Assembly (NCBI GenBank): GCA_937872005.1
Contig: CALMPQ010000452.1
Span: 1-14,239 of the forward strand
Reading direction: 5' to 3'
DNA: 14,239 nt
Origin: an uncultured Propioniciclava sp.
GTDB lineage: Bacteria; Actinomycetota; Actinomycetes; Propionibacteriales; Propionibacteriaceae
Notes under the pieces: generated by a model
The model's database searches: none
Told to the model about the DNA's origin: nothing
Seen by the model: only the letters and a program-made list of their open reading frames with translations
Program-made: the position numbers and the translations under genes
Part shown: positions 1 through 14,239 of the stretch, piece by piece
Layout: every line of letters begins with the position of its first letter
How positions within the stretch are numbered: the stretch's first letter is position 1

Positions 1-1351
1 ACTGGTTGATGCCCAGGTCGACGTAGCTGATGAAGCCGCGTTCGCGTCCCTTCTGCTCCTTGCTGACGAGCAGCTTCTCCAACACCTCCTGAAGCGCGCC
101 GTTGCCCAGCTTGGTTCCGGCGATCAGAGCGATGGCGTCCGGTTTGAAGAGGTCTGCCCGCAGGGGGTGGAAGATGAGCGCGTCGGTGGTCTCGACACGC
201 TCGCTCGTTCCTCGCTCGCTACTCGACCGGCGTGGCGCGGGGTGGCCGCGGTCGATGAGGCGGAAGAGCACCGCCAGCGAGTCGTAGAAGTGCGTGCCCG
301 TGCGCGCCTTCGGTGAGGCCAGCTCCACCAGCGTCAGCTCACGCAGCCGGTCGAGGCTGTAGCCCGTGTCGTACTCGGCCGCCCCCACCGGCAGGACGCC
401 CAGCTCGGGGGACGCCTCCGCGTACAGCAAGAACAGGATGCGATACAGGAACCGCAGCGACTGCCGCGCCAGCGGTTGCGCCTGCTCGGCCGGCAGCGGT
501 TCGAGGCCTTGCGCCCGGCGTCGGGCGACCACCTCGTTGGCGATGATCTCGATGCTGCGCCGCACACCCTCGCGCAGGTCCTTGCTGACGCCAACCGTGT
601 GCTTGACCGAGGCCTCCAGCACGGTGCTCCACCAGACCTGACCGTCGGCGTCCGGGGCCAGCGAGTCTGCGTCGAGGATCGTCAGCGCCCGGTCGATCTC
701 GCCCCCGCGCTTGACCTCGTTGCGGTCGCACACCGTCTGTAGGTCAACGGCCAGATAGCGGCCCTCGGCCCACCGCGCGGCTTCGGTGACCAACGCCCAG
801 CGCCCCGCGAGCACCAGCACAAACTGGACGCCGTCGTCAGCGTTGAACAGGCGCGAGATTGCCTTGGTCACGCTCGTCTCGGTCGTTTTCTCGTCGACCT
901 GCCAGTCGGTGAGCAGCCGGTGGTGGGGCTCCTTGGTGAAGAGGTCCTCCAGGGCTGCGGCCGGCTCGGCCTCGACGAGCGCGAAGGGAGGGTCGGCCGT
1001 CACGCCAGCCGTGTTGAACCACGTGACCGGCCCCGACGCCGTCGTCGCGAACTCGCGGGACGCATACCCCAGTACCTCGCGGAGTCGGGCGTGGGCGTCC
1101 GTGACGGCGATCGGTGTTGCCGCACGGCGTCCCTGTTCAATCGCCGGATCCGCGTAGAGCGCCGCCAGTGCGGTCGCCAACTCACCGCGGCGCGCGGTGA
1201 ACCGCGACCGGCTGGTGTCGTGCGTGGCGGCGTCCCACGCCTTGCGGCGGTCGAGCACCAGCCCGTGGAAGCTCTCCTTGGTCGCATCGGTGGTGAAGTA
1301 GTGCTCGGAGAGGAAGTCGTCCCCGACCACGAAGGCGTCTGACGTCGGCAC
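1..1351 (-). CDS. Large DNA methyltransferase, N-terminal part (DISARM DrmMI / PglX-like), cut by window edge
   Basis: About 450 residues are visible; the gene runs off the left edge. I translated it by hand from a GTG at 1351, six bases after the helicase stop and preceded by AGGAGGG at good spacing inside the helicase end. No stop codon occurs up to position 1. The segment QSLRFLYRILFLLYAEA followed by an LGVLPV/YDTGYSLDRLREL stretch is typical of the helical N-terminal region of large Eco57I/PglX-like adenine methyltransferases. The SAM-binding motif and the NPPF/NPPY catalytic motif would lie outside the window, so enzymatic activity is not shown here. In class 1 DISARM, drmMI follows drmD, as here. 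It presumably methylates host DNA to mark self. Oddity: a repeat-like element lies in frame near 188-228. It could instead belong to a type IIG-like or other helicase-methylase system. Confidence 0.72.
   Translation of the reverse strand, partial: MPTSDAFVVGDDFLSEHYFTTDATKESFHGLVLDRRKAWDAATHDTSRSRFTARRGELATALAALYADPAIEQGRRAATPIAVTDAHARLREVLGYASREFATTASGPVTWFNTAGVTADPPFALVEAEPAAALEDLFTKEPHHRLLTDWQVDEKTTETSVTKAISRLFNADDGVQFVLVLAGRWALVTEAARWAEGRYLAVDLQTVCDRNEVKRGGEIDRALTILDADSLAPDADGQVWWSTVLEASVKHTVGVSKDLREGVRRSIEIIANEVVARRRAQGLEPLPAEQAQPLARQSLRFLYRILFLLYAEASPELGVLPVGAAEYDTGYSLDRLRELTLVELASPKARTGTHFYDSLAVLFRLIDRGHPAPRRSSSERGTSERVETTDALIFHPLRADLFKPDAIALIAGTKLGNGALQEVLEKLLVSKEQKGRERGFISYVDLGINQ
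188..228. repeat. 41-bp REP-like dispersed element inside the methyltransferase gene
   Basis: The element begins GGTCTCGACACGC, has the core GCTCGCTCGTTCCTCGCTCGC written as two CTCGCTCG units around TTC, and ends GCTACTCGACC; its outer four bases are complementary. From memory it closely resembles a short repeat scattered between genes in many actinobacteria. Here it is translated as part of the methyltransferase, giving a low-complexity Ser/Arg/Glu stretch between LFRLIDRGHPA and DALIFHPLRADLF, two segments that look as if they should be nearly adjacent. There is no second copy in this window, so its repeat nature rests on recognition, not on a comparison made here. Confidence 0.6.
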
Positions 1352-1354
1352 CGC

Positions 1355-4237
1355 TCAGCCCTCCTGCGCGAAGTCGCTCGGATGGTCGGCGGGCAGCACG
1401 AGTAGGAGCGGGCGCACGAGCCGTTGGGTGGGTGCCATCTCGCGGATGAGTTCCTCCTCGTAGCCGATCGCCTCCATGCGCCGTCGCAGGCCCGAGCTGG
1501 TGGGGAACAGTTCGGCTTGGCCTCGCCACCGTGCGGTCTTGTCGGCCCACTGGTTGACGCGCCGCACCGCGTCGTCGGTCGCCGCGGTCAAGGCCGCCGC
1601 AAGCTGGGCGGACGCCGACTCGACCCCCGCGGCGACCAGGGGGGCCAGCGCCGCCAGGTCGGCGACCGGGCCGGGGTTGTTCATCGTCGGGCCGAACCCG
1701 ACGCCGGCGAACAGTTCGGCCGACGTGGCGACGACCTCGGATAACGCGAACGTCGGCGTCGCGGGGTCGGGGAACTGGACCTTGACCCAGGACGCCGCGA
1801 CCGTCTGCCCGCGGCGGTTGGTCAGGGTGCCCACGACCAACAGGGTCGGGCAGTCGACGTTCCCGCGTACGGCGTACACCTGGTTGCGGGCGAGGCTCGC
1901 CAGCGCACGGTCGGACGCCCAATCGAGCACCGGGTGCAGCGGGCCCAGGAAGTGCGCCTCAGGCCACGAGGTCTTGGTCGACTGGTCGGCCAGGGCACTC
2001 TCGAGCTCCTGCTTGCCCTTGCCGGCGTCAGTGGCGAGCACCAGCCGCTCGAGGACGCGTCGCTCGGCCAGATAGCTTTGCGGCAACACCTCTAAGCGCT
2101 GTCTGAGATCCTTCGGTGGCACGAACTCGACCAAGCGTTCGGCCGGGTGCTCCTTCCACGCGACGCCGTTCGCTGACGGGGGCGCCTCGGGGGTGACGAA
2201 CGCGGCCGTCAGCGCCTCGCGCAGGAAGTCGACCCGCTCGCGGTACAGCCCGGTGCGGAACGGCGCCGGTGCCGGCGGTGTGGGGGCGGACGCCGCCGCC
2301 GTCAATTGGGCGAACAGGGCGGCCAGTGGGTCGCCCGTGGCGGCGATGGTCGAGGGGTCCTTGACCGTCTCGTCGAGCGTGGCCTTACCCGCGAGGACGC
2401 GCTTGATCGCCTCCTCCTCCTTCTCGACCGAGTACTGCCCCATCAGGGACGCCGCGTCGCCCAGCGCCTTGTGGGCCTCCTCCTCGCGTTCGAGCAGGCG
2501 GCGCAGCACGACCAGGTCGCCGGCGAAGTCCTCGGCCGACGGGTTCAGCAACAAGGTGGTGATCTGGGGCGGCGTCCGCTGGCCGTAGCGGTCGATGCGG
2601 CCGTTGCGCTGCTCGATACGGATCAGCGACCACGGGATATCGTAATGGATCAGTTCGTGGCACTGTCGGTGCAGGTTGACGCCCTCGGACGCCACGTCGC
2701 CGGTGACCAGCACGCGGATCGGTGAACTCGACAGCTTGAACGACTCCACGATGTCCTGCTGGTCGACGTCGGAGAGCCCCCCGTGCAGCACGCGGACCTG
2801 GTCGGTCGTGAACCCGAGGTCTTTCGCCAGGCGCTGCTGCAGGTAGTGCAGCGTCGGGACGCGCTCGGCAAACACAACCGCTCGCATCGGCGAGGTCTTC
2901 TTCACGCCGATCTCGCCCAGGTAGGCCAGGAGGGCGTCGTACTTGCTGCTGCTGGTGTGCGTCGCCTCGTTGAGGGCGGCGAGGCGCGTGAGGGCGTCCG
3001 CCTCGATGCGCTGCGCCGCGGTGTGGGACCCGATGGGGCCCAACGTGCGGAGCCGCTGCGCGATGGTTTCGGCGAGAGCCGCGGATGAGGACAAGAAGGC
3101 CTTCGCGAGCGTCCACGGGAACAGGGTCGACGCTTGGCCTGAATAGGGGCTGGCGGCGTCCTTGGGGTGCAGCCACACGTCGGCGAGTTCCTGGGCCACG
3201 GCGTCTTCTGCGGGGGAGGCCCCGATGAGCTTGTGCTGCGGCTGCTTGCGCTCGGCCCAGTCGGCGCCGACGACCCGGGCGACCTCATCGGAATGGCGGT
3301 GCCGTCGGATGACGAGCCTGCTCACTTCGTCGGGGACCAGGTCGCCCTCGGGCGTCACGGCCGTGGGTTCGAGCAGCCGCACCAGCTCGGCGAACGACTC
3401 GGGGCGTCCGTTGTGGGGGGTGGCCGAGGCGAGGATGAGGGCGTCCGTCTTGGGGGCGAGCGTGCGCGCGAGGCGATTGTTCTGGGTCGCCGAGTTGGTG
3501 ACGTTGTGGGATTCGTCGATGACGACGGCGTCCCAGGAGTGTCGGCGCAGGTCGGAGGCGAACCGATCCTGCTTGAGGGTGTCCATCGAGATGATGACCC
3601 GGTTGAAGTAGGTGAACGGATTGCGCGTCGCGGGCAACTTCTGCTTGACGCGCTGGACGCCGACCGAGTCGAGCCGCACGAACGGGATCGCGAAGCGGTT
3701 CCACATCTCACCCTGCATCTGCTCCAACACGTGGCGTGGGCAGACGATGAGGATGCGCTCGCCACGGCCGCGGCGGATCAGTTCGGCGAGGATCATGCCG
3801 ATCTCCAGCGTCTTGCCGAGACCCACGGCGTCGGCGAGCAGGATGCGGGGGCGCAGGGCGTCCGGGTCGAGGGCTTTGCGGACAGCCGTCTGCTGGTAGC
3901 CGAGTTGGTCGGCCAACGCCCCGGTCGAGACAGTGAGGCGTTCGTCGGTGAGCGGGAGTGGCGTCTTGCGGACGGTCGCCTCCAACCAGAGGCGTGCGTC
4001 GCGGTAGTGGGGGGAGGAGTCGGCCCGCAGGGTCGCGAGACGGGGGTCGAGCACCTCGATCGTGTCCAGCGATTCGTAGAAGGACGCCGTGGTGCCCCGC
4101 ACGAGTTCGCCGAGGCCCTGGACGGTGAGCAGTTGCCCGTCGTCGGTGTGGCGGATCTGTGTGACCAGCCACTCCTCGTCGCGCACGACCACGATCGAGC
4201 CCGGAGCAACGTTCAGGGCGCGCGCCGTGTCAGTCAA
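1355..4237 (-). CDS. drmD: SNF2-family helicase/ATPase, DISARM DrmD-like
   Basis: 960 residues from a TTG start at 4237, chosen because GAGGAGGA (4246-4253) lies eight bases upstream and the family-like N-terminus (PGSIVVVRDEEWLV, residues 12-25) begins just after; upstream in-frame sequence is arginine-rich and looks noncoding. Visible helicase motifs: Walker A DAVGLGKT (136-143), DESH box (241-244), motif III SATPHNG (271-277), a second RecA lobe with LHGGLS (484-489), and motif VI IEQRNGRIDRYGQ (541-553). The segment PFVRLDSVGVQRVK followed by NPFTYFNRVIISMDTLKQD is what I recall from DrmD. DrmD is the signature helicase of class 1 DISARM, a multi-gene defence against phage DNA. The methyltransferase follows with only three bases between stop and start, so they are co-transcribed. 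A generic RapA-like helicase is the alternative. Confidence 0.85.
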   Translation of the reverse strand: MTDTARALNVAPGSIVVVRDEEWLVTQIRHTDDGQLLTVQGLGELVRGTTASFYESLDTIEVLDPRLATLRADSSPHYRDARLWLEATVRKTPLPLTDERLTVSTGALADQLGYQQTAVRKALDPDALRPRILLADAVGLGKTLEIGMILAELIRRGRGERILIVCPRHVLEQMQGEMWNRFAIPFVRLDSVGVQRVKQKLPATRNPFTYFNRVIISMDTLKQDRFASDLRRHSWDAVVIDESHNVTNSATQNNRLARTLAPKTDALILASATPHNGRPESFAELVRLLEPTAVTPEGDLVPDEVSRLVIRRHRHSDEVARVVGADWAERKQPQHKLIGASPAEDAVAQELADVWLHPKDAASPYSGQASTLFPWTLAKAFLSSSAALAETIAQRLRTLGPIGSHTAAQRIEADALTRLAALNEATHTSSSKYDALLAYLGEIGVKKTSPMRAVVFAERVPTLHYLQQRLAKDLGFTTDQVRVLHGGLSDVDQQDIVESFKLSSSPIRVLVTGDVASEGVNLHRQCHELIHYDIPWSLIRIEQRNGRIDRYGQRTPPQITTLLLNPSAEDFAGDLVVLRRLLEREEEAHKALGDAASLMGQYSVEKEEEAIKRVLAGKATLDETVKDPSTIAATGDPLAALFAQLTAAASAPTPPAPAPFRTGLYRERVDFLREALTAAFVTPEAPPSANGVAWKEHPAERLVEFVPPKDLRQRLEVLPQSYLAERRVLERLVLATDAGKGKQELESALADQSTKTSWPEAHFLGPLHPVLDWASDRALASLARNQVYAVRGNVDCPTLLVVGTLTNRRGQTVAASWVKVQFPDPATPTFALSEVVATSAELFAGVGFGPTMNNPGPVADLAALAPLVAAGVESASAQLAAALTAATDDAVRRVNQWADKTARWRGQAELFPTSSGLRRRMEAIGYEEELIREMAPTQRLVRPLLLVLPADHPSDFAQEG

Positions 4238-4469
4238 CTCGACCGTCCTCCTCGTTGGGGTCAGGGAGCAGGCTAGTGGATATCGCGTCCGCACATCTCC
4301 CGCGGCCTGTGCCCGTCGGCGCCGCGGGCGTCCGCTTACCCAGTGGCCGTTGCCAATGTGGGGTGCACGAAGTCGCGGGCGGCGGCGTCCGGCGAAGGTG
4401 TTTCGGCGGGGGAGTGTGACGACCCTGTTCTTGCCGATGATGCGGCGGTGAGCGCGTTGCGCCCCGGCG
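4238..4469 (-). promoter_or_regulatory. Leader and probable promoter region of the drmD-like gene
   Basis: This 232-bp stretch holds no convincing gene. On the minus strand a TAGCCT hexamer (4270-4275) fits the TAnnnT -10 pattern and would place transcription start about 25 bases before the TTG, leaving room for the ribosome binding site at 4246-4253. I see no good -35 element. No clear terminator hairpin follows the upstream ATPase gene, so read-through from it is possible. Confidence 0.35.
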
Positions 4470-5651
4470 TCAGGCGTTGCGGAGCTTGCCCACCAGTGCG
4501 CCCAGGGCGATGACGCCGACGCCGCCCGAGGTGGTGTATTCATCCTCGGTGCCGGGGTGGACGACCCATCTGTTCTCCACCCCGAGGTCGTCGCAAGCGC
4601 GGTGGAAACCGGCGCTCACACTCGGTGCCGTGGACAGCTTGACCTCGACCGCCGTGTGGGGCCTCCCGCCCTCCACCAGGACCAGGTCGACCTCGTTGCC
4701 GGTGGCCGTCCGATAGTGGTGCGCCTGCCACGAGGTCGGTGCGGCGTCGATGAGACTCTCGACGGCATGGCTCTCGAAACTGGACCCGGCCGAGGGGTGG
4801 CCGAGCAGGTCGTCAAGGGTGGTGAGCTCGAGCAAGGCGTGGAGGAGTCCCGAATCCCTGACGAACACCCTCGGGGACTTCGTCATGCGTTTGCCGGTGT
4901 TGGTGAACCAAGGCGTGAGTCGCCTCGTGAGCCCCAGGTCGACGAGGAGGTCGATGTAGCGATCCACCGTGGGGCCGGACACCCCCAGCGATTGCGCCAG
5001 CCGACTCGCATTGAGCAAGCCCCCACTGGAGTGCGCCAGCATGGTCCAGAGCCGGCGGAGCGTCTCGGCGGGGATGCGCGGGGCGAACATGGGCACGTCG
5101 CGCTCCAGGTAGGCCCGGATCAGGTCCTGACGCCACTCAAGCGAGGTCCGGTCATCGTCGGCGGTGAGTGAGTCGGGGAACCCGCCGCGTAGCCACAGCC
5201 GCTCCGGGGGGATGCCGTAGGCAGCCGCCTCGTCGACGTTGATCCCACTCAGTTCTACGTGCGCGACCCGGCCGGCCAGGCTCTCCGAGGACATCTGGAT
5301 CAGGTCGAGGGACGCCGATCCGAGGAGCAGGAACTGCCCGGTCCTGAAGCCCCCCCGGCGGTTGTCGTCAATGACGCCGCGCAGGGTGGCGAACAACTCG
5401 GGGACGCGGTGGACCTCGTCGAGTACCACCAGGTGGGGGGCTTGGTTCCGCAGGTAGGCGTCCGCATCGTCGAGCCGACGACGGTCAGTCGGCCGCTCCA
5501 GGTCGAGATAGGTGGCGCCGCCCGGCCAGCTGTCAGCGAGCTGGCGCGCCAGCGTCGTCTTGCCGACCTGCCGGGGGCCCAGGAGCACCGTGGCAGCCGA
5601 CGTGCTGACCCGACGCCGTAGTTCCTGCGCCTTGAACCGCTCGATCACCAT
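4470..5651 (-). CDS. AAA ATPase with C-terminal DUF4143 domain
   Basis: 393 residues, the usual full length for this family (COG1373 type). Walker A GPRQVGKT is at 25-32, Walker B HLVVLDEVH at 73-81, and a sensor-like LLLGSAS at 108-114. A helix-turn-helix-like segment (about 205-240, NASRLAQSLGVSGPTVDRYI) links to the C-terminal DUF4143 part, where NEVDLVLV (319-326) followed by AVEVKLS (334-340) has the layout of a PD-(D/E)xK nuclease fold core; whether it cuts DNA is unknown. The family has no settled function. It lies upstream of the drmD-like gene on the same strand, separated by 232 bp. No Shine-Dalgarno precedes the ATG; a long palindrome occupies that space, suggesting autoregulation and leaderless or short-leader translation. 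Confidence 0.88.
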   Translation of the reverse strand: MVIERFKAQELRRRVSTSAATVLLGPRQVGKTTLARQLADSWPGGATYLDLERPTDRRRLDDADAYLRNQAPHLVVLDEVHRVPELFATLRGVIDDNRRGGFRTGQFLLLGSASLDLIQMSSESLAGRVAHVELSGINVDEAAAYGIPPERLWLRGGFPDSLTADDDRTSLEWRQDLIRAYLERDVPMFAPRIPAETLRRLWTMLAHSSGGLLNASRLAQSLGVSGPTVDRYIDLLVDLGLTRRLTPWFTNTGKRMTKSPRVFVRDSGLLHALLELTTLDDLLGHPSAGSSFESHAVESLIDAAPTSWQAHHYRTATGNEVDLVLVEGGRPHTAVEVKLSTAPSVSAGFHRACDDLGVENRWVVHPGTEDEYTTSGGVGVIALGALVGKLRNA

Positions 5652-5681: not shown

Positions 5682-5724
5682 CACCGGCAGGAGATCTGGC
5701 AGCGCTTGGTGCCACCGCGGTGCG

Positions 5725-5886
5725 TCAGGCGAAGCTGAACCAGCCCAACAGGCCGCAGCCAATGGCGAAGACCACCATCACGACGAACAGCAGCACGCTG
5801 AGGGCGCCGCCGAGCAGTTCGCCGGCCTTCTCCTCGGCCGTGTCGGCGGTGTGGGTTGCGACGTTACCGTCAGGCGTCTCGGTCAT
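5725..5886 (-). CDS. Small single-span membrane protein (paralogue of the last nor-operon gene)
   Basis: 53 residues from the ATG at 5886. The N-terminal half is polar and acidic; residues about 29-48 form one hydrophobic helix ending in GCGLLGWF. The 51-residue protein encoded at 8072-8227 has the same layout and the same helix pattern (VLFVxMxVFAxGCxxLGWF). The start overlaps the stop of the upstream pseudogene by four bases, the same arrangement of paired genes as at 8225-8229. It therefore looks like the surviving member of a second, mostly lost copy of the nor-operon tail. Function unknown; a longer upstream in-frame extension is rejected because it is the antisense-like arginine/proline-rich type and the paralogue lacks it. 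Confidence 0.65.
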   Translation of the reverse strand: MTETPDGNVATHTADTAEEKAGELLGGALSVLLFVVMVVFAIGCGLLGWFSFA

Positions 5887-6121
5887 ACGAGGCCTCCCAG
5901 GCGGCTGAGGTCCGACATCAGGGCGACGGCCAGGATGGTGAACACGATGAACATGAAGGCGGTGTACATCCACCGGCGTGGGTGGTCGGTGGACCAGAAC
6001 CGCTTCAGGCTGATGACCCCGTTGACCACGGCGAACACGCAGAACGCGATGCCGATCGGCCGGCCACCCAGCCCGCGAGGCTCAGGATCGGCACGAGCAC
6101 CGGAACCAGCACGTAGGTGAC
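5883..6121 (-). pseudogene. Frameshifted and 5'-truncated membrane protein gene, paralogue of the 138-residue nor-operon protein
   Basis: The last 60 codons (from PIGIAFCVFAVVNG to SDLSRLGGLV) match the 138-residue protein at 8227-8643 closely. Upstream, VTYVLVPVLVPILSLAGWVA also matches, but in another frame: where the intact copy has twelve bases between GATGCCGACCGG and its CACCCA block (plus strand), this copy has eleven, a one-base loss at about 6059-6063. Homology stops at about 6121, so the first roughly 60 codons and the start are missing. The loss of both start and frame argues for a true pseudogene rather than a single sequencing error. Confidence 0.7.
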
Positions 6122-6253: not shown

Positions 6254-6262
6254 GTCGGGCCG

Positions 6263-6853
6263 TTACACCTTGGCCTTGCGCCATCCAGCCTCTCGGGCCT
6301 CGGCCTCGGAGCAGAACATCCGCTCGCCCTTGGAGGGGTCGATCTTGGTCCTGCCGTAGTACTGCTGCCCGGGGACGTGGTAGATCTTCTCGCCCTTGTT
6401 GCTGATGTTTCCCTTGATGTTGCAGTCGCCCGAGGGGGCGGAGCCCCCCTTGGGTTCCTTTGCCGCCGGCTGCGTCGGCTCGGGCGCCTTGGTCGCTGCA
6501 GGTGCCTTGCTGGGGGCGGACGCCATAGCGGGAGAACTCGTCTCAACCGGGGAGGCATCTTGGGTGGCGGGCGGCGCCTCAGGGGTGGCGGTCTGCTCGT
6601 GTTCAGGGCTAGGAATGGCGGAGGGCGTTGGTCTGGCCGCCGAAGCCATGGGCGGTGTGGAAAGGCCCGCCGCCGGAGCGATCGCGGTCTGGGCGGTCGG
6701 CTGACCGTTCGGCCAGATGGCCACGAGGACGACGACCAGCGCAGCGATGGTGCCGACCTGTCGCCCCTTGCTCACAGGGCCCGCGTCGCTCTTGCCGCGC
6801 ACGCTGTCCCAGGTCCACCGCGCAGCTCCGCCAAGTGCATCCTTTAAGGCCAC
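6263..6853 (-). CDS. Membrane-anchored protein with Pro/Ala/Thr-rich linker and C-terminal sunset domain
   Basis: 196 residues from GTG 6853, with GGAGG five bases upstream. The N-terminus (1-32) is basic, residues 33-47 are a hydrophobic anchor (VGTIAALVVVLVAIW), and about 50-142 is a Pro/Ala/Ser/Thr-rich linker of the kind that spans the actinobacterial cell wall. Residues 143-196 form a compact domain starting CNIKGNIS and containing KGEKIYHVPG, YYGRTKID and GERMFCSEAEAREAGWR, the pattern of the sunset domain often found at the end of secreted nuclease-like proteins. Cys144 and Cys181 may pair outside the cell. There is no catalytic domain, so a wall-associated or DNA/ligand-binding role is only a guess. 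A TAGCCT-like -10 candidate (TAGGCT on the minus strand, 6881-6886) lies upstream. Confidence 0.75.
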   Translation of the reverse strand: MALKDALGGAARWTWDSVRGKSDAGPVSKGRQVGTIAALVVVLVAIWPNGQPTAQTAIAPAAGLSTPPMASAARPTPSAIPSPEHEQTATPEAPPATQDASPVETSSPAMASAPSKAPAATKAPEPTQPAAKEPKGGSAPSGDCNIKGNISNKGEKIYHVPGQQYYGRTKIDPSKGERMFCSEAEAREAGWRKAKV

Positions 6854-6966
6854 GGTGTCCTCCAGTGTTGAATTGCCAACAGCCTATCCAGATCGTGGGG
6901 TGCCGATTGGGCCGGCCCAGAACACACGGACGACGTGCATATCCGGAGCTCGCTCGGCCGTACCCA

Positions 6967-6996
6967 TTGACGTGCCAATATGGCTCCCACTAGGTT
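6967..6996 (+). promoter_or_regulatory. Sigma-70-type promoter for the coiled-coil gene
   Basis: TTGACG (6967-6972), an 18-base spacer and TAGGTT (6991-6996) on the plus strand match housekeeping consensus well. Transcription would start near 7003, giving a leader of about 60 bases with GAGGAG (7052-7057) before the ATG at 7065. It lies in the 211-bp divergent region between the sunset-domain gene and this gene; the rest of that region shows no gene, only the perfect 12-bp palindrome TGGGCCGGCCCA near 6908. Confidence 0.6.
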
Positions 6997-7064
6997 GAAT
7001 GCAACCGAACGGGGGGTCGGGGTCGACTCGCGGCCCGCGCACGCCCCGTGTGAGGAGCACTCGC

Positions 7065-7505
7065 ATGCCCGACAACAGCACCCTGATGTGGATCATCCTT
7101 GCGGTCGTCGTCCTGGCGCTCGTGATCGCGGTGGTCGCCATGACCTCCCGCAACCGGCGCGCCCGGGAGGAGGCCCAGCAGCACGCGGTGGCGGCCCAGC
7201 AGCGGCAGCAGGCCGACGAGCTGCGCACCCGCAGCCAGGATGAGGACGTCCGCGCCAAGGAGGCGCAGGCGGCCGCCGCGCAGCAGGAGGCCGAGGCCAC
7301 CCGCGCCCGCCACGAAGCCGACCGGCTCGAGCGCGAGGCGCAGCAGCAGGCCCACGAGGCGCGGCGCGCCCAGGAGGCTGCCGACACGCACCGCGCAGAG
7401 GCCGACCACCTCGACCCCGGCGACGCCCTGGGTGACGGAAGCCACGCACTCGGCGCGCGCGTCCACCCCGACGACCTGGCTCAGGACGGGCGAACCACCT
7501 CGTAG
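7065..7505 (+). CDS. Membrane-anchored coiled-coil protein
   Basis: 146 residues from ATG 7065, seven bases after GAGGAG. Residues 8-27 (MWIILAVVVLALVIAVVAM) form a single membrane span, followed by a basic stop-transfer stretch (SRNRRAR). About 31-118 is rich in Ala, Gln, Glu and Arg with repeated AQQ/EAQ units, a strong coiled-coil signature, and the tail (119-146) is polar with Gly and Asp. No enzymatic motif. Such proteins usually act as scaffolds or are simply uncharacterised. It is convergent with the reductase gene and overlaps its 3' end by 25 bases, so the two mRNAs share complementary ends. Confidence 0.7.
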   Translation: MPDNSTLMWIILAVVVLALVIAVVAMTSRNRRAREEAQQHAVAAQQRQQADELRTRSQDEDVRAKEAQAAAAQQEAEATRARHEADRLEREAQQQAHEARRAQEAADTHRAEADHLDPGDALGDGSHALGARVHPDDLAQDGRTTS

Positions 7506-8041
7506 ACCAACCGCGCGAACTGCCCGACCGCCGCAGCCGAGACCAGTCGCAGGCGATCCGACTCGACACGCCGCGGCAACAAGGGTGCCCCGCCGGTCAA
7601 CGCCACGGGCGCCACAGACAGCGCGATCTCGTCCAGCACCTCGGCATCCAAGAACTGGCCCGCGAGGTCGCCGCCGCCGACGACCCAGATGTCGCCGCCG
7701 GCGGCAGCCTCGCGGATCGCGGGGAGGGCGTCCAGGACAGAACCACGCACGAAGCGCACGTCGGCGCCCGCCGGCACCGGCAACGCGCGCGTCGTGAACA
7801 CGAACGTCGGTCGCTCGCCGTGGAACTCCTGCCACTTCTCGGGATGGGCCAGCAGGTCGGATTCGGCGAGCACCCACTCGTACGTCGTCGAGCCCTCGAC
7901 CATCACCGCGGCTTCGGCTGGGAACAGCCCCTCGTCGGGGTGGTCGCCGCCGTCGACCGCGAACAGCCAACTGAGCGAGTTCGACTCGTCGGCGATCCAG
8001 CCGTTCAGGGTGGTGGCGGTGTCGAAGATGATGCGTCCCAT
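7481..8041 (-). CDS. Dihydrofolate reductase / RibD C-terminal-domain family protein
   Basis: 186 residues from ATG 8041 (MGRIIFDTATTLNGWIAD), the N-terminal pattern of the RibD_C family. A TTG nine bases upstream in frame is possible but less family-like. VVGGGDLAGQFL is the nucleotide-binding glycine turn and EVLDEIALSVAPVALTGGAPLL is the usual C-terminal strand region (the second split as EVLDEIALSV and APVALTGGAPLL). These are NADPH-dependent reductases of unknown substrate, distinct from true FolA. The gene lies 30 bases after the last nor-operon gene on the same strand and could be its distal member, but TAGGTT (8048-8053 on the minus strand) ends seven bases before ATG, the spacing of a leaderless promoter. 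Confidence 0.82.
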   Translation of the reverse strand: MGRIIFDTATTLNGWIADESNSLSWLFAVDGGDHPDEGLFPAEAAVMVEGSTTYEWVLAESDLLAHPEKWQEFHGERPTFVFTTRALPVPAGADVRFVRGSVLDALPAIREAAAGGDIWVVGGGDLAGQFLDAEVLDEIALSVAPVALTGGAPLLPRRVESDRLRLVSAAAVGQFARLVYEVVRPS

Positions 8042-8071
8042 GCTGGCCAACCTAACGCGGCTCCTTCGAGG

Positions 8072-8227
8072 TCAGTCGAACCAGCCCAGCATCACGCAGC
8101 CGACGGCGAAGACGATCATCGCCACGAACAACACGATGGTGAGCACGGCGCTCTCGACCTCGCTGGGCTGCTGGTGCTGCGCCGCGTACTGCTCGACGTC
8201 GAACTCGTGCGGGGTGTCGGTGTTCAT
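8072..8227 (-). CDS. Small single-span membrane protein, nor-operon gene 6
   Basis: 51 residues from ATG 8227, whose A is shared with the TGA of the preceding gene (translational coupling). An acidic/polar N-terminal 25 residues with EQYAAQHQQPSEVES precedes one hydrophobic helix (about 27-46) ending in GCVMLGWFD. The C-terminal GWF and the internal FAVGC are shared with the paralogue at 5725-5886. The size and topology suit a small subunit or assembly factor of a membrane complex, here presumably the nitric oxide reductase, but that is inferred from position only. Confidence 0.7.
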   Translation of the reverse strand: MNTDTPHEFDVEQYAAQHQQPSEVESAVLTIVLFVAMIVFAVGCVMLGWFD

Positions 8228-8643
8228 CACAGGGCTCCCAGGCGGCTGAGGTCGGAGACGAGGGCGAGGGCCAGCACGACGAACACGACCGCCATGAAGC
8301 CGGTGTAGAGCCAGCGGTGGGGGTGGTCCGACCCCCAGAAACGGCGCATGCTGATGACGCCGTTCACCACGGCGTAGGTGCACAGCGCGATGCCGACCGG
8401 GGCCGCCACCCAGCCGGCGAGGCTGAGCACGGGCACCAGCACCGGCACCAGCAGGTAGGTGATCAGGCAGCGGATGCCCGAGACCACCACCGAGATCCGG
8501 AACGCCCGGTGGGCCTCCGCGCTGGGCCGCGGCTCCAGTCCGCGCACGCCCAGCAGGCGGCGCATGAAGCGTTCGGCCGGGGCGTCCGACCGGAACACGG
8601 GCTGTCGGCGCCCGGAGCGGGTGGGCGCGCTCGAGGCGGTCAC
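8227..8643 (-). CDS. Three-span membrane protein, nor-operon gene 5
   Basis: 138 residues from GTG 8643, overlapping the stop of the preceding gene (GTGA). Residues 1-48 are basic and soluble; hydrophobic spans lie at about 52-76, 80-99 and 111-130. Between spans two and three is the loop RRFWGSDHPHRW, conserved in the pseudogene copy near 5950-6000 as KRFWSTDHPRRW, which marks it as functionally important. No known domain recognised. Conservation of the last two spans and the loop between copies, with divergence elsewhere, suggests that this part contacts a partner. Longer in-frame starts upstream are rejected because they run over the preceding gene. Confidence 0.7.
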   Translation of the reverse strand: MTASSAPTRSGRRQPVFRSDAPAERFMRRLLGVRGLEPRPSAEAHRAFRISVVVSGIRCLITYLLVPVLVPVLSLAGWVAAPVGIALCTYAVVNGVISMRRFWGSDHPHRWLYTGFMAVVFVVLALALVSDLSRLGAL

Positions 8644-8945
8644 GGTGCCACCTCCTCGACGGCCCGCTCGGCTTGGGCGTGCTTCCACATCCGGACGCCA
8701 CCGAACACGGCCAGCAGCACCCCAGCCCCGCCGATGACGACGCCGGTGAACAGCCCCCAGTAGAGGGGGCTGAACAGGCCGGTGTCGGCCGAGCGCCCGG
8801 TCATCACGCCGAACAGGAAGCCGAACAGCGGCGCCAGGGCGGCCAGCACCACGCCGATCGTCACCGCCCAGAAGCCCGGTGCGGTGGGTTCGAGGCGGAT
8901 GGGCCGTCCCGCACTGGTGTCGAGGTCGAGGTCCGCATGGCTCAT
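8640..8945 (-). CDS. Two-span membrane protein, nor-operon gene 4
   Basis: 101 residues from ATG 8945, overlapping the slipin stop by four bases (ATGA), with GGAAGG upstream in the slipin end. The first 20 residues are acidic and polar; spans lie at about 24-48 and 61-84, with a short loop GRSADTGLFSP and a charged C-terminus. The gene has no recognised domain. The four-base overlaps on both sides indicate that it is made in step with its neighbours. Function unknown; likely a membrane partner of the slipin or of the reductase. Confidence 0.7.
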   Translation of the reverse strand: MSHADLDLDTSAGRPIRLEPTAPGFWAVTIGVVLAALAPLFGFLFGVMTGRSADTGLFSPLYWGLFTGVVIGGAGVLLAVFGGVRMWKHAQAERAVEEVAP

Positions 8946-9784
8946 CGCAGTTCACCTTCCTTGCCCCGGTCGACGACGGTCAGGCCGGGCTTGTGGGGAC
9001 GGGCGGCGGGGGCGTCCGGCTCGTTGAACCGCTCGACCGCCTTCACGATCGGGCCGACGATGTCCATCGGCAGGGGGAACACCACGGTGGAGTTCTGGTC
9101 GGCGCCCAGCTCCAGCAGGGTCTGCAGGTAGCGCAACTGCAGGGACGCCGGCGCCTCGCTCAGCGTGAGGGCCGCGTCGCGCAGTTCCTGGGACGCCTGC
9201 AGCTCACCCCGCGCGCTGATCACCTTGGCGCGGCGTTCGCGCTCGGCCTCGGCCTCGCGGGCCATGGCGCGCTGCATCATCTCGGGGATCTCGACGTCCT
9301 TGATCTCGACGACGGACGCCTCGACGCCCCATTCGGCGGTCTGCTTGGCGATGGAGCGGGCGAGGTCCTCGTTGAGGTCGGCGCGGTGGGCGAGGAGGGT
9401 GTCGAGTTCGGCGCGTCCGACGACCGAGCGCAGGGTGGTCTGCGCGAACTGCGACGTGGCGATCGCGTGGTTCTCGACCGACATGACCGACAGCACCGGG
9501 TCGACGACCCGGAACATGACCACGGCGTTGACGCGCGCGGTCACGTTGTCGCGGGTGATGACCTCCTGCGGCGGGATCGTCAACGTGACCGTGCGCAGGT
9601 CGACGCGGATGAGCTTGTCCAGGAACGGCAGCATGAACACCAGGCCCGGGCCCAGCGCGCCGCGCAGCCGACCGAGGCGGAAGGCCACGACGCGCTCGTA
9701 CTCGCGCACGACCCGGATGGAGGCGAACAGGAACGCGACCACCAGCAGGGCGGCCAGGATCCCGAGGACGACTTCAGTTTGCAT
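8942..9784 (-). CDS. Slipin-family (SPFH/stomatin/prohibitin) membrane protein
   Basis: 280 residues from ATG 9784, preceded by AGGAGAG. One N-terminal hydrophobic span (5-22) anchors the protein. The SPFH domain covers about 23-190, with REYERVVAFRLGRL, GPGLVFMLPF (45-54), VDLRTVTLTIPPQEVITRDN (61-80) and the family signature AMAREAEAERERRAKVISA (173-191), followed by a coiled-coil region. The tail (from about 255) is Pro-rich and basic. Slipins assemble into large rings that organise membrane patches and often protect or position partner membrane proteins. It lies in the same operon as the NO reductase and overlaps the preceding gene by 11 bases, which suggests that the NOR complex is its client. 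In other bacteria slipins often pair with NfeD proteins; none is visible here. Confidence 0.92.
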   Translation of the reverse strand: MQTEVVLGILAALLVVAFLFASIRVVREYERVVAFRLGRLRGALGPGLVFMLPFLDKLIRVDLRTVTLTIPPQEVITRDNVTARVNAVVMFRVVDPVLSVMSVENHAIATSQFAQTTLRSVVGRAELDTLLAHRADLNEDLARSIAKQTAEWGVEASVVEIKDVEIPEMMQRAMAREAEAERERRAKVISARGELQASQELRDAALTLSEAPASLQLRYLQTLLELGADQNSTVVFPLPMDIVGPIVKAVERFNEPDAPAARPHKPGLTVVDRGKEGELR

Positions 9785-10409
9785 CGATCTCTCTCCTGTC
9801 GGATGCGTACGAACTGCGCCGGCGGGCGAGCGCGGCGGCCGCCGCCTCGCGGTCGGCGAGCGTCTGGTCGAGGGTGCGCACGACCGCGCCCATCGGGTCG
9901 GCCGGCGAATGGCGCAGGTGCGACCACAGGGGCAGGGACGCCCCGGCCACCAGCACCGCGACCCCCAGCACGAGCACCTGGCTGGGCCAGGTCGTGACGA
10001 CCAGGGCGGTCAGGGCCGGCCAGATGACGGCGATCACGCTCACCGCGCACGCGATGCCGCGGTGGAACCGCGCCGCCTCGGAGGCCGGCCACGGGTCGAC
10101 GGCGCGCCGCATCTCGCGGCCGTCGTTCGACGCCGTGCACGTGTCCTTCACCGGGCACGCATTGCACACCAGGGGCAGCCCCCGGTAGCGCATGACCCGG
10201 TTCTCGGGGTCGAACGACTGGGGGTAGAGCCACTGGTCCTCGGGGCAGAGCCAGGCGTCGTGGTTCTCGTGGTAGACGAACCCGCCGCTGCGGTCACCGA
10301 TCAGGCGGTGGTGCGCGCGCCGGGCCAGCAGGTCGATGGCGTACGCGATGCCCAGCAGCAGGACGCCGTAACCGGCGGCCAGCCAGGCCATCACCTCGAT
10401 CTGGCTCAT
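9774..10409 (-). CDS. Membrane protein with a Cys/His cluster, nor-operon gene 2
   Basis: 211 residues from ATG 10409, overlapping the norB stop by four bases (ATGA). A membrane span (about 6-26) is followed by a soluble domain (28-115), then two spans (about 119-140 and 143-163) and a charged helical C-terminus. The soluble domain has His47, His50, Cys55 (HENHDAWLCPEDQ), and Cys82, Cys85, Cys91 in C-x2-C-x5-C (VCNACPVKDTCT), followed by DGREMRR. This looks like a metal-binding site and recalls the zinc-ribbon segment of some DDE transposases, though there is no transposase here. In an NO-reductase operon it could be an iron-sulfur, zinc or redox module, or an NO-sensitive sensor. Function not known. 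A much longer in-frame reading to 12875 is only a shadow of norB. Confidence 0.75.
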   Translation of the reverse strand: MSQIEVMAWLAAGYGVLLLGIAYAIDLLARRAHHRLIGDRSGGFVYHENHDAWLCPEDQWLYPQSFDPENRVMRYRGLPLVCNACPVKDTCTASNDGREMRRAVDPWPASEAARFHRGIACAVSVIAVIWPALTALVVTTWPSQVLVLGVAVLVAGASLPLWSHLRHSPADPMGAVVRTLDQTLADREAAAAALARRRSSYASDRREIDAN

Positions 10410-12811
10410 GTCGGCTCGTCCTCGGTCGGGGACTCGACGGCGGTGGCCGTACGACGGTCGGAGGCGTACCGGGTCGGGGAGGCGATGCCGGTGCGGTCCT
10501 CGCGGGCCTGCGGCGTCTCGATGACGAACAGCGTCTCGGGCTCCATCGCGGTGACCGTGGGCTTGATGGCGTGCCGGACGCCGAGCCAGGTGATCCAGAC
10601 GAAGGGCAGGATGCCGCCGACCAGGAACACCACGTCGCCGGGCATCCGCAGCCACTCGAGGATCACGTTGCCGGGCTGGCTGATGTAGCCCAGCGTGCGG
10701 GCCTCGAAGTAGCCGTCGTTGACCGAGTGCCACAGCTGGAGGACGCCCAGGGGCAGGAGGGTGGCGAACACCATCCAGGCCAGTCCGATGTTGAGGCACC
10801 AGAACGAGATCTTGGCCAGGCGGTCGGGCCAGCGCTCGGGCTTGATGATGTAGCGCAGCGCGAACAGGGCCATGCCGACGGCGAGCATGCCGTAGACGCC
10901 CATCATCGAGCCGTGCGCGTGGTTGGCCGTGAGCGCGGTGCCGATCTGGTAGTAGCTGACGATCGGCAGGTTGATCAGGAAGCCGAAGACGCCGGCGCCG
11001 ACGAAGTTCCAGAAGCCGACGGCGACCAGGAACATCACCGCCCAGCGGTGCGGGAAGGGTGCGCTCGACCGGGATTCCTGTTGGGACCCGAGCTGAAGGA
11101 ACGACCACGCCTCGACGGTCAGGAACGTGAGCGGGATGACCTCCAGCGCGGAGAAGAACGCGCCCAGGGCCATGTGCTCGACCGGCGTGCCGGAGAAGTA
11201 CAGGTGGTGCATCGTGCCGATGACCCCACCGGCGGAGTAGAGGATCACGTCGAGGAAGATGATCTGGATCGCGATCTTGCGCCGCACCACGCCGAGCATC
11301 ACGAAGATGTAGGCGACCATGACGGTGGTGAAGAGCTCCAGGAAGTCCTCGACCCAGAGGTGGACGACCCAGAACCGCCAGAACTCGGCGACCGTGACGT
11401 GGGTGTCGTTGGTGGCGAGCAGGCCGACCGCGTAGAAGGCGGGGATGGCGAGGGCTGCGAAGAAGAACAGCCACGGCATGTTGAACTTCGACTCGGTGCG
11501 CAGCCGGGAGCGGATCGCCCGGTAGACGATCAGGATCCACAGGAACAGGCCGATCACGAGCAGGATCTGGAAGAACCGGGGCAGGTCGAGGTACTCCCAC
11601 TGCTGGTCGAAGAAGATCGAGCCGGCCGCCCACGAGGGCCCGAAGGTGCTGATCGCGGTGCCGCCCAGCATGCCGACGACGACGACGAACAGGGCGCCCA
11701 GGAGCCCGTACGCGAGCCAGTGCTGACGCTTGGGTTCGCGTCCGGAGATGATCGGGGCGAGGAAGATCGCGGCGGCGAGGAAGGCGGCGGCAGTCCAGAG
11801 CAGGGAGAGCTGGACGTGCCAGGTGCGGCTCAGGTTGAACGGCAGCACCTGGGCCAGGTCGAGGCCGAAGAAGCCGGACAGCTCGACGCGGTAGTGCTCC
11901 ACGGCGGCGCCCAGCGTGGACTGGACGAGGAACAACAGCGACACGACGAGGAAGAACCAGGCGGTCGCCTTCTGCGCCTTGGTGATGCCGACCTTCCCGG
12001 GCTGGAGGAACGACAGGCTCGGCGCCTCGGTGGACTGCCACCCGATCTTCTTGCTCCAGCGGCCGTAGACGGCGAACAGGGCGCCGAGGCCGGCGAGCAG
12101 GGCGACCAGCGACATGGCCGACCAGACGAGGATGTCGGCGGTCGGCACGTTGTTGACGCGCGGCTCGGCGGGCCAGTTGTTCGTGTAGGAGTAGTCGTGG
12201 CCGGGCCGCTCGGCGGCGGCCGCCCACCCGGTCCAGGCGAAGAAGGCCGTGAGGTCGTGGATCTGCTGCGGGTCGGTGATCGCCGACGGGATCAGTCCGT
12301 GCTCGGTGGTCGGGGTACCGAAGAAGTCGGCGTAGTGCTGCTTGATCTCCTCGAACGCGCTGATCTGCTCGTCGGTGAAGACCAGGGTGCCGGTGGCCGC
12401 GTCGTAGCGGTTCTCGCGCAGGTGCTCGACGGTGGCCGCGATGGGGTCGGGCGTGTTCGTGGCGCGGAGCCGCTCGGTGACGTGCTCGCTCGACAGGCGC
12501 AGGTACTCGGCGGTGTAGTCGGGGCCGAGGTAGCCCCCGTGGCCCATGATCGAGCCGTACTGCTGCAGGCCGCGGCGCAGGAAGATCTGCTGGCCCTCGG
12601 TGACCTGGGCCTCGGTGAACACGACCTGACCGGACTGGCTCACCACCTGCTTGGGCAGCGGCATGCTGTCGGTGTAGGTGCGGTAGGCCAGGAAGCCCAT
12701 CACGAAGAAGCCGAAGACCATGACCAGGGCGACGCCCTGCACCCAGCCCTTCGAGATGACCAACTCCGCCTTCGACGGGTTCAGATCCGGGTTGTTGCTG
12801 ACGCGACTCAC
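10406..12811 (-). CDS. norB: Quinol-dependent nitric oxide reductase (single-subunit, qNOR)
   Basis: 801 residues from GTG 12811, with AGGTGG seven bases upstream; a longer start would run into the promoter. It reduces two NO to N2O at the membrane, taking electrons from quinol. The N-terminal extension (1-230), homologous to cytochrome c-like NorC but lacking a CxxCH heme site, marks the quinol type. The heme-copper-type core follows: His332 (WHVQLSLLW), His484 and Glu488 (VVHLWVED), His535-His536 (GTMHHLYFSG), and His631/His633 (ANHAHGSMMG). These fit the ligands of heme b, heme b3 and the non-heme iron FeB, all present. About fourteen membrane helices and a hydrophilic tail after 745. First gene of a six-gene operon. 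No nitrite reductase is near, which suggests NO detoxification. Confidence 0.96.
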   Translation of the reverse strand: MSRVSNNPDLNPSKAELVISKGWVQGVALVMVFGFFVMGFLAYRTYTDSMPLPKQVVSQSGQVVFTEAQVTEGQQIFLRRGLQQYGSIMGHGGYLGPDYTAEYLRLSSEHVTERLRATNTPDPIAATVEHLRENRYDAATGTLVFTDEQISAFEEIKQHYADFFGTPTTEHGLIPSAITDPQQIHDLTAFFAWTGWAAAAERPGHDYSYTNNWPAEPRVNNVPTADILVWSAMSLVALLAGLGALFAVYGRWSKKIGWQSTEAPSLSFLQPGKVGITKAQKATAWFFLVVSLLFLVQSTLGAAVEHYRVELSGFFGLDLAQVLPFNLSRTWHVQLSLLWTAAAFLAAAIFLAPIISGREPKRQHWLAYGLLGALFVVVVGMLGGTAISTFGPSWAAGSIFFDQQWEYLDLPRFFQILLVIGLFLWILIVYRAIRSRLRTESKFNMPWLFFFAALAIPAFYAVGLLATNDTHVTVAEFWRFWVVHLWVEDFLELFTTVMVAYIFVMLGVVRRKIAIQIIFLDVILYSAGGVIGTMHHLYFSGTPVEHMALGAFFSALEVIPLTFLTVEAWSFLQLGSQQESRSSAPFPHRWAVMFLVAVGFWNFVGAGVFGFLINLPIVSYYQIGTALTANHAHGSMMGVYGMLAVGMALFALRYIIKPERWPDRLAKISFWCLNIGLAWMVFATLLPLGVLQLWHSVNDGYFEARTLGYISQPGNVILEWLRMPGDVVFLVGGILPFVWITWLGVRHAIKPTVTAMEPETLFVIETPQAREDRTGIASPTRYASDRRTATAVESPTEDEPT

Positions 12812-12847
12812 GGCACGACCACCTGCACTCTCCCTGGGGATGTCGAC

Positions 12848-12865
12848 CACGGCCCGGCGGCCGTG
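12848..12865 (-). promoter_or_regulatory. Stem-loop at the start of the norB leader
   Basis: CACGGCC and GGCCGTG form a seven-base stem around a four-base loop, just after the predicted transcription start. It could protect the 5' end of the operon mRNA. There is no U-tract, so it is not a typical terminator. Confidence 0.35.
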
Positions 12866-12873
12866 CAGACGGC

Positions 12874-12902
12874 ACACTAGCGAGAGCTGATTGTTACAGC
12901 AA
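12874..12902 (-). promoter_or_regulatory. norB operon promoter
   Basis: On the minus strand TTGCTG (12897-12902), a 17-base spacer and TAGTGT (12874-12879) fit a sigma-70 promoter. Transcription would start near 12867, leaving a leader of about 55 bases to the GTG at 12811. The -35 box lies inside the inverted repeat at 12889-12916. Confidence 0.6.
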
Positions 12903-12916
12903 GGCGTATAACAATC
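12889..12916. promoter_or_regulatory. 28-bp inverted repeat over the norB -35 box (candidate operator)
   Basis: GATTGTTA (12889-12896) and TAACAATC (12909-12916) are exact complements separated by 12 bases, centre-to-centre 20 bp, or two helical turns. They flank and overlap the -35 element, so a bound dimer would block or modulate polymerase. The shape does not match the FNR/CRP box (TTGAT-N4-ATCAA) and I cannot name the regulator; an NO-responsive repressor is the expected type. Confidence 0.6.
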
Positions 12917-12948
12917 CGCGGACAAGGCGAATCGCCGGGGAGGGGCGG

Positions 12949-13368
12949 CTACGGCAGGCCCGCGTCCCGCACCAGCATCGCGGCGGAGACGCGGTTGTCG
13001 ACGCCGAGCTTGGTGAAGATGTGCGACAGGTGCGCCTTGACCGAGGCCATCGACACGTTCAACCGCGTGCCGATCTGGGCGTTCGTCAGGCCCTGGGCCA
13101 TCAGCACGGCCACGTCGCGCTCGCGGTCGGTGAGTTGGGCCAGCGCGGCCCCCGCCCCCGCATCGACCGGCCCGTGGTCGGTCGCCACCGCGATCAAGGT
13201 GCTGGTCACTTGCGGCGACAGGGTCGGCTCGCCTGCGTGCACACGGCGGATGGCGTCGACGAGGCGGGCGGGGTCGGCGTCCTTCAGCAGGAACCCCTCC
13301 GCGCCCAACCGCAGCGCGCGCACCACGTAGTCGTCGGTGTTGAACGTGGTCAGCACGATCACCCGAGG
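12949..13368 (-). pseudogene. 5'-truncated NarL/LuxR-type response regulator
   Basis: About 140 codons remain, to TAG at 12949. They hold the last third of a receiver domain (PRVIVLTTFNTDDYVVRAL, then GAEGFLLKD with the conserved Lys) and an intact LuxR helix-turn-helix (LTDRERDVAVLMAQGLTNAQ, then IGTRLNVSMASVKAHLSHIF). The phospho-accepting Asp and the first three strands are missing. Sequence upstream of about 13368 belongs to an esterase-like gene on the other strand. A long open frame continues over that gene but encodes no receiver sequence. It may once have regulated a neighbouring operon with a sensor kinase, now lost. Confidence 0.8.
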
Positions 13369-14031
13369 TCGCTCGACCGCGACGTGGCGTCCCGGGTCGA
13401 GCAGGCCACGGCAGGGCTGCTGGCCGCGGTCACGGCGTCCGATGATGGGAGCGAGGCGGCCGCCGACGCGACGCAGGCAGCGCGCGTGCTGGAGCAGAGC
13501 CGCCAGCGCGCGTTCAAGACCGGCTCGCGTGACGCCCTGCTGTTCGAGAACCTGCGGTGGGTCGTGGAGCGCGGGGCGGCGTCCGGGCGCGAGCACACGC
13601 TGCTCTTCGCCCACAACGGGCACGTCGACCGCGCCGGACAGGCCAGTCTCGCGCCCGGCGACAAGCTCGGCGAGCTCGCCGCCCGGCACTGGGGTGAGTC
13701 CTACCGGGCGATCGGCACCGACGGGCACCGCGTCGCGGTCGAGGCCGACGGGATGACGGCCGTCACCGTGTCCGGACGCCACCGCGGCCTGTTCGCGGGC
13801 ACCCGCGTGGGCTACCTGGAGGTGGCCGACGTGACCGGGCCCGACGCGGACCTGTTGCGCTCGCGCGTGACGATGGTGAGTGTCGGCTACCCCTTCGCGG
13901 CGTGGCAGGCGTGGATCCCCTTCCTGCACACCGTCGACGTCACGCCGACCGAAGCCTGGGACGCCCTCATCTACGTCTCGGACGCCGCCCCACGACCCGG
14001 GTGCCGTGATCAGAGCCCGGACCGTCCCTAG
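13369..14031 (+). pseudogene. 5'-truncated erythromycin-esterase-like gene
   Basis: About 220 codons to TAG at 14029-14031. The reading shows RDALLFENLRWVVERG and TLLFAHNGHVDRAG, the helix and H-x-G-H region typical of erythromycin esterase-family hydrolases, then KLGELAARHWGESYRAIGTD and a C-terminal part ending AWDALIYVSD. Family members have around 400 or more residues, so the N-terminal half, with other active-site residues, is missing. The open frame that runs back to 13021 over the response regulator is antisense shadow. It is almost certainly not a working enzyme. Confidence 0.7.
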
Positions 14032-14040
14032 ACTGCGGTC
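14029..14040 (+). promoter_or_regulatory. Leaderless-type promoter of the DUF3375-like gene
   Basis: TAGACT (14029-14034) is a strong TAnnnT -10 box ending six bases before the ATG at 14041, so transcription would begin at or next to the start codon. No Shine-Dalgarno is visible, which agrees. The TAG of the esterase remnant is the first half of the box. Confidence 0.5.
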
Positions 14041-14239
14041 ATGGCAGGACGCACCGGCAGCGCGGTCGCGGCGCAGCGGGCGGCCCAGTCGGCCGGCCTG
14101 AAGCTGATGCGCGCGGAGTTGATGCCGGTGGTCGTCGCGATCCTCGCCGCGCGGTTCGCCGACCACCGCACGCTGCCGTACGCCGAGTTCATCGCCCTGG
14201 TGGGCGAGGACCTCGACGAACTCCGCGATGCCGGCTTCC
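14041..14239 (+). CDS. N-terminus of a DUF3375-like protein (Wadjet JetA-type kleisin), cut by window edge
   Basis: 66 codons are visible from ATG 14041. After a short Ala/Gly-rich start, LKLMRAELMPVVVAILAARF and then LPYAEFIALVGEDLDELRDAGF follow. The order (hydrophobic helix after a LLRA-like element, then a helix with D-L-x-x-L-R-x-x-G-F) resembles the N-terminus of DUF3375 proteins, the JetA subunit of the plasmid-restricting Wadjet complex. jetA is the first gene of Wadjet operons, which fits a gene with its own promoter heading out of the window. The piece is short, so the family call is tentative. Confidence 0.5.
   Translation, partial: MAGRTGSAVAAQRAAQSAGLKLMRAELMPVVVAILAARFADHRTLPYAEFIALVGEDLDELRDAGF

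Follow-up and report, generated by a model that had tools for sequence, protein, structure and literature searches.

Quinol-type nitric oxide reductases (qNORs) take their electrons from quinol and produce the greenhouse gas N2O. The known enzymes (NorZ; the Geobacillus protein 3ayf and those of Achromobacter and Neisseria) have 14 membrane helices and an N-terminal cytochrome c-like domain without haem-c motif, and they are described as products of single genes; the available part of one paper calls qNOR a single-subunit enzyme (PMC13087809). In the norCBQDEF operon of cNOR the reductase gene is accompanied by further genes downstream. Among SPFH proteins, HflK/HflC are able to surround a membrane enzyme, while the clients of slipins are, to our knowledge, an open question. 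Here a locus is described from an uncultured Propioniciclava sp. (contig CALMPQ010000452.1, positions 1 to 14,239; this whole stretch of 14,239 nt is called the window), in which a qNOR gene (NOR) opens a series of six minus-strand genes at 8072-12811, the others coding for a Cys/His membrane protein (C protein), a slipin and three small membrane proteins, p101, p142 and p51. Unlike the single-gene qNORs, NOR is tied here to its Cys/His partner and usually to the slipin too. On balance, we lean towards the view that this qNOR has its own lineage-specific membrane partner module, in which the C protein would be dedicated to NorB, as an accessory subunit or a stability factor.

Conservation and history of the module

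The NOR protein is a clear qNOR. It matches PF22085 (E 4e-54, 184 bits) and COX1 (E 1e-53, 183 bits) far above the Pfam cut-offs, its closest solved relative is 3ayf (phmmer E 1.6e-153), and alignment of the HLWVE and HH segments with this structure indicates that the catalytic His/Glu of the haem b3-FeB site are kept. The N-terminal cytochrome c-like domain lacks the CxxCH motif, as in the known enzymes, and no cysteine occurs in that part of the translation; the 14 hydrophobic segments are also shared with them, and therefore both ends of the protein are expected inside the cell. A motif-bearing C-terminal tail, described below, sets NOR apart from the known qNORs. None of the six module proteins matches NorC, NorQ or NorD in Pfam or NCBIfam, and no partner matches NorE or NorF, so that the locus differs from the cNOR operon.

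The sequence-only reading of this DNA had placed six genes here with overlaps of 1 to 11 bases; its coordinates were borne out, as were the overlaps (4, 11, 4, 4 and 1 bases, from NOR to p51). Pfam scans agree with its naming of a qNOR and a slipin, and no family above cut-off was found for the C protein, p101, p142 or p51. A promoter scan returned 0 promoter-like sites, and the 5 terminator-like sites (1.3 in shuffles) all fall within NOR or slipin.

Relatives were collected by scanning named bacterial and archaeal genomes with an alignment of the C protein (A1) alone, with no selection for NOR or slipin, and 80 loci were kept of 104 relatives. By their titles these loci belong to Propionibacteriaceae, Mycobacteriaceae, Corynebacterium, Micromonosporaceae, Nocardioidaceae, Cryobacterium, Arthrobacter, Brachybacterium and others; one contig titled Acidobacteria (L010) may be mis-binned. 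All 80 loci keep the order NOR, C protein, slipin, with the three genes sharing a strand. The NOR and C genes overlap in 59/79 and the C and slipin genes in 74/79 (L027, whose module frames are broken, was excluded from these counts); for slipin and p101, counted at the 54 loci where BLAST found p101, the figure is 48. Profile searches detected p101 in 64/80 loci and p142 and p51 in the same 19/80. Tight coupling had been read as the sign of a fixed assembly: what holds at the level of genes is a fixed NOR-C-slipin module, not one six-gene unit, and a single fixed six-gene complex was rejected on these counts. A neighbourhood confined to close relatives had been named as what would speak against the module; the trio is instead kept across the phylum.

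The upstream neighbours are not conserved, and therefore the order of the module does not reflect general synteny: no Pfam family was common to more than 3 of 64 upstream proteins from 41 loci (E 1e-5), in a set of 1-2 genes per locus hand-picked from 129 rough gene calls at 43 loci, and plain local synteny was rejected. A plasmid tblastn search with the C protein gave no match at E 1e-5.

The dependence of the partners on NOR was followed in two samples, 396 phylum genomes, 14 of them NOR-positive, and 393 class genomes, 21 of them NOR-positive. The two sets have 8 NOR-positive genomes in common, which leaves 27 different ones, and C-protein and slipin profiles were run against each of these. 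Of the 396 phylum genomes, 15 have C-protein matches. Ten of them, with strong matches (E 3e-49 or better), belong without exception to the 14 NOR-positive genomes; the five weak matches (E 4e-10 to 9e-4) comprise four that are DDE transposases when read as long frames, and L095. The C protein adjoins NOR in 21/27 NOR-positive genomes, as found in the co-occurrence survey that had been proposed for qNOR, the 211-residue protein and slipin in Actinomycetota, and 17 of the 21 have the slipin next to both (one stop codon interrupts the slipin match of G703 and that of G654, and the NOR match of G164 falls in two frames). A homologue of the C protein without the Cys4 (zinc) domain follows NOR in G684 and G474, and neither partner lies beside NOR in four genomes (G042, G226, G133, G128), two of which (G133, G128) hold only short NorB-like frames. 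Strong p101 matches in the class genomes lie beside the NOR module in 7/7 cases, one of them (G535) without slipin; five further matches have E 1e-4 or worse. In the samples searched, neither the C protein nor p101 occurs without NOR. NOR and the C protein form the dedicated pair, while slipin, p101 and p142/p51 look like successive additions.

These results bear on the possibility that nothing more than co-regulation under nitrosative stress links the genes, with NO removed by NOR and the membrane protected or repaired, independently of this, by slipin and the small proteins. The general nature of slipins as membrane proteins is in keeping with such a division of labour, and so is the finding that 25/27 NOR-positive genomes have slipin-profile matches away from NOR; we nevertheless regard it as quite improbable, given the restriction of the C protein and p101 to NOR in the samples searched, the unconserved upstream neighbours, which make a general stress island unlikely, and the motif common to the NOR and C tails.

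The history of the module was traced on a FastTree of 85 NOR proteins, window included, rooted by choice on two partnerless qNORs; 7 of the 80 loci, with NOR frames below 700 aa, were left out and 11 further loci were added. The tree displays a nested addition, from NOR alone to NOR with C protein, then slipin, then p101 and finally p142/p51. The p101 bearers form one clade of 59 rows (L155, inside it, is without slipin), in which a single clade of 15 rows with p142/p51 is nested, and slipin requires at least 2 changes; the order of additions at the base is unsure because the deep branches are open and some rows are long. Over 74 rows, the pairwise distances of the three core proteins NOR, C and slipin are correlated with one another (r 0.88-0.91). 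Moreover, a Mycobacterium locus (L018) is nearer to a Tessaracoccus one (L004; identity 78% for NOR, 62% for C, 77% for slipin) than to a Mycolicibacter one (L052; 65%, 49% and 71%), which suggests that the three genes moved together as a block.

The Cys/His protein and the slipin

Hydropathy assigns three helices to the C protein, and AlphaFold2 predicts them at block means of 93-98 pLDDT. The loop between helices 1 and 2 is long, has many positive charges and is expected inside; it holds the pattern C-x26-C-x2-C-x5-C, present in 80/80 relatives, whose four cysteines are invariant in an 81-sequence alignment with Thermoleophilia relatives and are candidate metal ligands. Mean column identity of the protein is 42% over 36 diverse copies. 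The family counts at least 2476 proteins of 2957 candidates at E 0.001. Thermoleophilia/Solirubrobacterales names among the 120 matches listed mark a large branch; G283, the genome that supplied the query for this branch, has NOR and the C protein without slipin beside them.

The Cys4 region alone aligns with NCBIfam NF033551 (E 6.5e-8; 31.9 bits against a whole-protein cut-off of 270), and hhalign of the C protein with four actinobacterial DDE transposases gave a probability of 97.4 (E 1.5e-11). The Cys4 domain (CP...CNxCP...CT...GR) is homologous to that of IS1182-family transposases; the C protein differs from them in that no catalytic DDE domain was found in it and the Cys4 domain sits in the loop of a three-helix membrane protein. 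It is therefore no IS1182 transposase, in contradiction to some database names in the family, such as 'Transposase DDE domain'. These names and the domain homology are what a transposase remnant, inserted beside norB by chance, would explain; the idea has next to no probability and is refuted by conservation, since the protein keeps a fixed place after NOR in 80/80 loci, is strongly conserved and lacks DDE. In the open-access literature, a search for a domesticated IS1182 zinc domain returned, by title, only phytopathogen insertion sequences.

The two zinc-less homologues have 116 and 109 aa. In a BLAST comparison with a small local set of C proteins (E 1.5e-12 and 3.5e-5) they match helix 1 and the stretch that runs from WPxSExxRxH to helix 3. 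They suggest that it is the helices that face NOR, with the Cys domain as an insert, either gained or lost. They also speak against a redox role, in which the C protein would carry an Fe-S or rubredoxin-like centre for NO sensing or electron transfer to NorB. A Cys4 site in a positively charged loop on the inner side would suit this role, but the transposase domain to which it is homologous is not known to have a redox role and qNOR electrons come from quinol, so that we consider it very improbable.

The main rival of a dedicated subunit is a transient factor for maturation or metal delivery to NorB, a stand-in for NorQ/NorD, with the slipin acting in membrane quality control and no stable complex. 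The invariance of the Cys4 set in 80/80 relatives would fit, as would the need of cNOR for NorQD in FeB insertion, stated in the available part of a paper that also says that qNOR needs no additional genes (PMC9976466). The Cys4-less homologues beside NOR are hard to reconcile with it, and a transient role leaves the motif common to NorB and the C protein unexplained; we judge it unlikely, although it deserves weight.

The slipin matches Band_7 (E 9e-38), and its profile (A3) matches the solved stomatin 9oh9 with E 5e-83, while its scores stay below the cut-offs of HflK (70.7 bits, cut-off 159.4) and HflC (40.2, cut-off 134.4); it resembles stomatin better than HflK/HflC of the FtsH system. 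Like PH1511 and stomatin it is thus a clear member of the family, but it differs in its operon partners, which here are NOR, the C protein and p101. Slipin/stomatin genes are often paired with NfeD, an association that is common rather than defining, and no Pfam match to NfeD was found in p101, p142 or p51.

The shared tail motif and the proposed assembly

The C-terminal tails of NOR and the C protein both hold an (S/T)xYASDRR-like sequence. A strict pattern, Y[AGSR]SDR[RK], was sought in 81 loci, in every stop-to-stop frame of 35 aa or more (2,589,197 residues), and all of its 90 occurrences are in NOR or C frames. By locus (80), it is present in both proteins in 36, in neither in 33, in NOR only in 9 and in C only in 2, and in none of these loci in the slipin tail or p101; shuffled tails yield it in 1/14,800 trials for NOR and 2/14,800 for C. 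At the DNA level Y[AG]SDRR matches exactly twice in the own genome (72% complete) and twice in another genome, G307 (100% complete), in each case in NOR and C. The motif is nearly private to these two proteins in the loci searched. In NOR, the strict motif is found in 41/58 rows with p101 and in 0/16 without; p101 rows form one clade, so this association is not independent evidence.

Open-access literature, which omits most subscription papers, contains no description that could be found of a module of NOR, Cys/His protein and slipin, and titles linking slipin, stomatin, SPFH or band 7 with NO reductase were not found there; what came up for stomatin concerns, by title, mitochondria. The available parts of papers on actinobacterial qNOR mention no partner (PMC13332983, PMC6349771), and that of a Corynebacterium pseudotuberculosis paper predicts only norB in the genome (PMC4289026). 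The statement of the sequence-only reading that it knew of no described NOR complex of this composition agrees with this survey, in which the qNORs described, as far as the sources are available, are single-gene.

In the partner module that we favour, helix 1 and the helix 2-3 hairpin of the C protein would pack against NorB, and its Cys4 domain, metal-bound (probably zinc) and structural, would lie on the cytoplasmic face. A putative ring of the stomatin-type slipin would scaffold NorB and the C protein in the membrane, in a complex that may affect NO reduction; p101 would have joined this scaffold later, and p142/p51 in one clade. The tails of NorB and C would share a docking motif, [ST]-x-Y-[AG]-S-D-R-R, and the presence of the same motif in both makes binding to one common receptor, slipin or p101, probable.

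Several observations weigh against this proposal. Other qNORs are described, in the available parts of the sources, as working from a single gene (PMC9976466, PMC13087809), and two of the NOR-positive genomes (G042, G226) have a full-length qNOR without any partner beside it. Slipin is missing beside the NOR-C pair in 4 of 21 genomes (G535, G164, G184, G283), and AlphaFold2 models the Cys4 region that joins helix 1 to helix 2 with low confidence (block means 41-52 pLDDT). The tail motif is absent from whole clades that keep slipin, the Mycolicibacter loci among them, and its gains and losses in NOR and in C are not significantly coupled when independent pairs are compared (5-6 pairs; median p 1 for the strict and 0.5 for a relaxed motif). 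Finally, the motif occurs also in a few unrelated proteins of other genomes: in 20 genomes scanned with the DNA pattern, 14 fetched loci hold in-frame matches that belong to neither NOR nor C. These may lie in non-coding frames, and at least three look like real proteins. One of them (L138) resembles, by reading of its sequence, what we take to be a tyrosine kinase of the polysaccharide type; another, present in two genomes of one family (L182:2351-4612, minus strand, and L163), looks like a membrane protein, has no Pfam match and carries a long disordered tail that ends in WYGSDRREH.

Neighbouring genes and wider meaning

Table 1. Features of the module and of its surroundings, in window coordinates
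Feature	Position	Strand	Description
NOR, quinol-type nitric oxide reductase (NorB/NorZ)	10406..12811	-	801 aa; GTG start; PF22085, COX1; 14 predicted membrane helices (hydropathy) and C-terminal tail of ~50 residues
YASDRR tail motif of NOR	10451..10468	-	C-terminus
Cys/His protein (C protein)	9774..10409	-	211 aa; three-helix membrane protein with Cys4 domain in the helix 1-2 loop
Domain homologous to the Cys4 region of IS1182-type transposases	10071..10283	-	C protein aa 43-113; NF033551, hhalign
YASDRR tail motif of C protein	9792..9809	-	C-terminus
Slipin (stomatin-family SPFH protein)	8942..9784	-	280 aa; Band_7, stomatin 9oh9
p101	8640..8945	-	Small two-helix membrane protein; 3' of slipin in 64/80 loci
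p142	8227..8643	-	Three-helix membrane protein; 138 aa counted from GTG start; 19/80 loci
p51	8072..8227	-	Single-helix membrane peptide; 51 aa; same 19/80 loci as p142
Second p142/p51-like pair	5725..6091	-	68% identity to p142 over 57 aa
Defence-like block	2..5651	-	
DrmD-like SNF2 helicase, in defence-like block	1355..4543	-	E 8e-92
LuxR-type response regulator and erythromycin-esterase-like fragment	12949..14031	- and +	Meet near 13,360
JetA-like (DUF3375, Wadjet) gene, 5' part	14041..14238	+	Cut by contig end

The p142-like part of the second pair in the window is split over two frames; a second p142 is also present in the close relative L003, directly after p51. Besides the helicase, the defence-like block includes an AAA_14/DUF4143 ATPase (candidate PDC-S01) and a type IIG/DrmMI-like restriction-methylase that is truncated where the contig starts. 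On the other side of the module, the receiver match of the LuxR-type regulator begins only at profile position 70 and the match of the erythromycin-esterase-like fragment at position 131, pointing to a deletion or misassembly where they meet. Elsewhere in the own genome a NirK-like copper nitrite reductase region lies within a 922-aa frame (G000:C229:2972-3793, plus strand); the NirK model reached 163.9 bits in this genome, below the family cut-off of 296.3.

A more far-reaching version of the partner module can be put forward only tentatively: the qNOR of Actinomycetota would be the catalytic subunit of an undescribed modular assembly built on an old three-helix partner, in whose cytoplasmic loop a transposase-type zinc domain would have been gained, or in places lost, and a stomatin ring would corral NorB and this partner through [ST]xY[AG]SDRR, read by slipin or p101. 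If true, this would be an SPFH-organised NO-reducing microdomain, and we know of no earlier one. Factors that have not been co-expressed with actinobacterial qNOR may be required by it or control it, and a likely role would be gained for the C-protein family, some of whose at least 2,476 members are named transposase. The module would also offer a bacterial slipin with an obvious client, and the short tail motif a handle for its docking.

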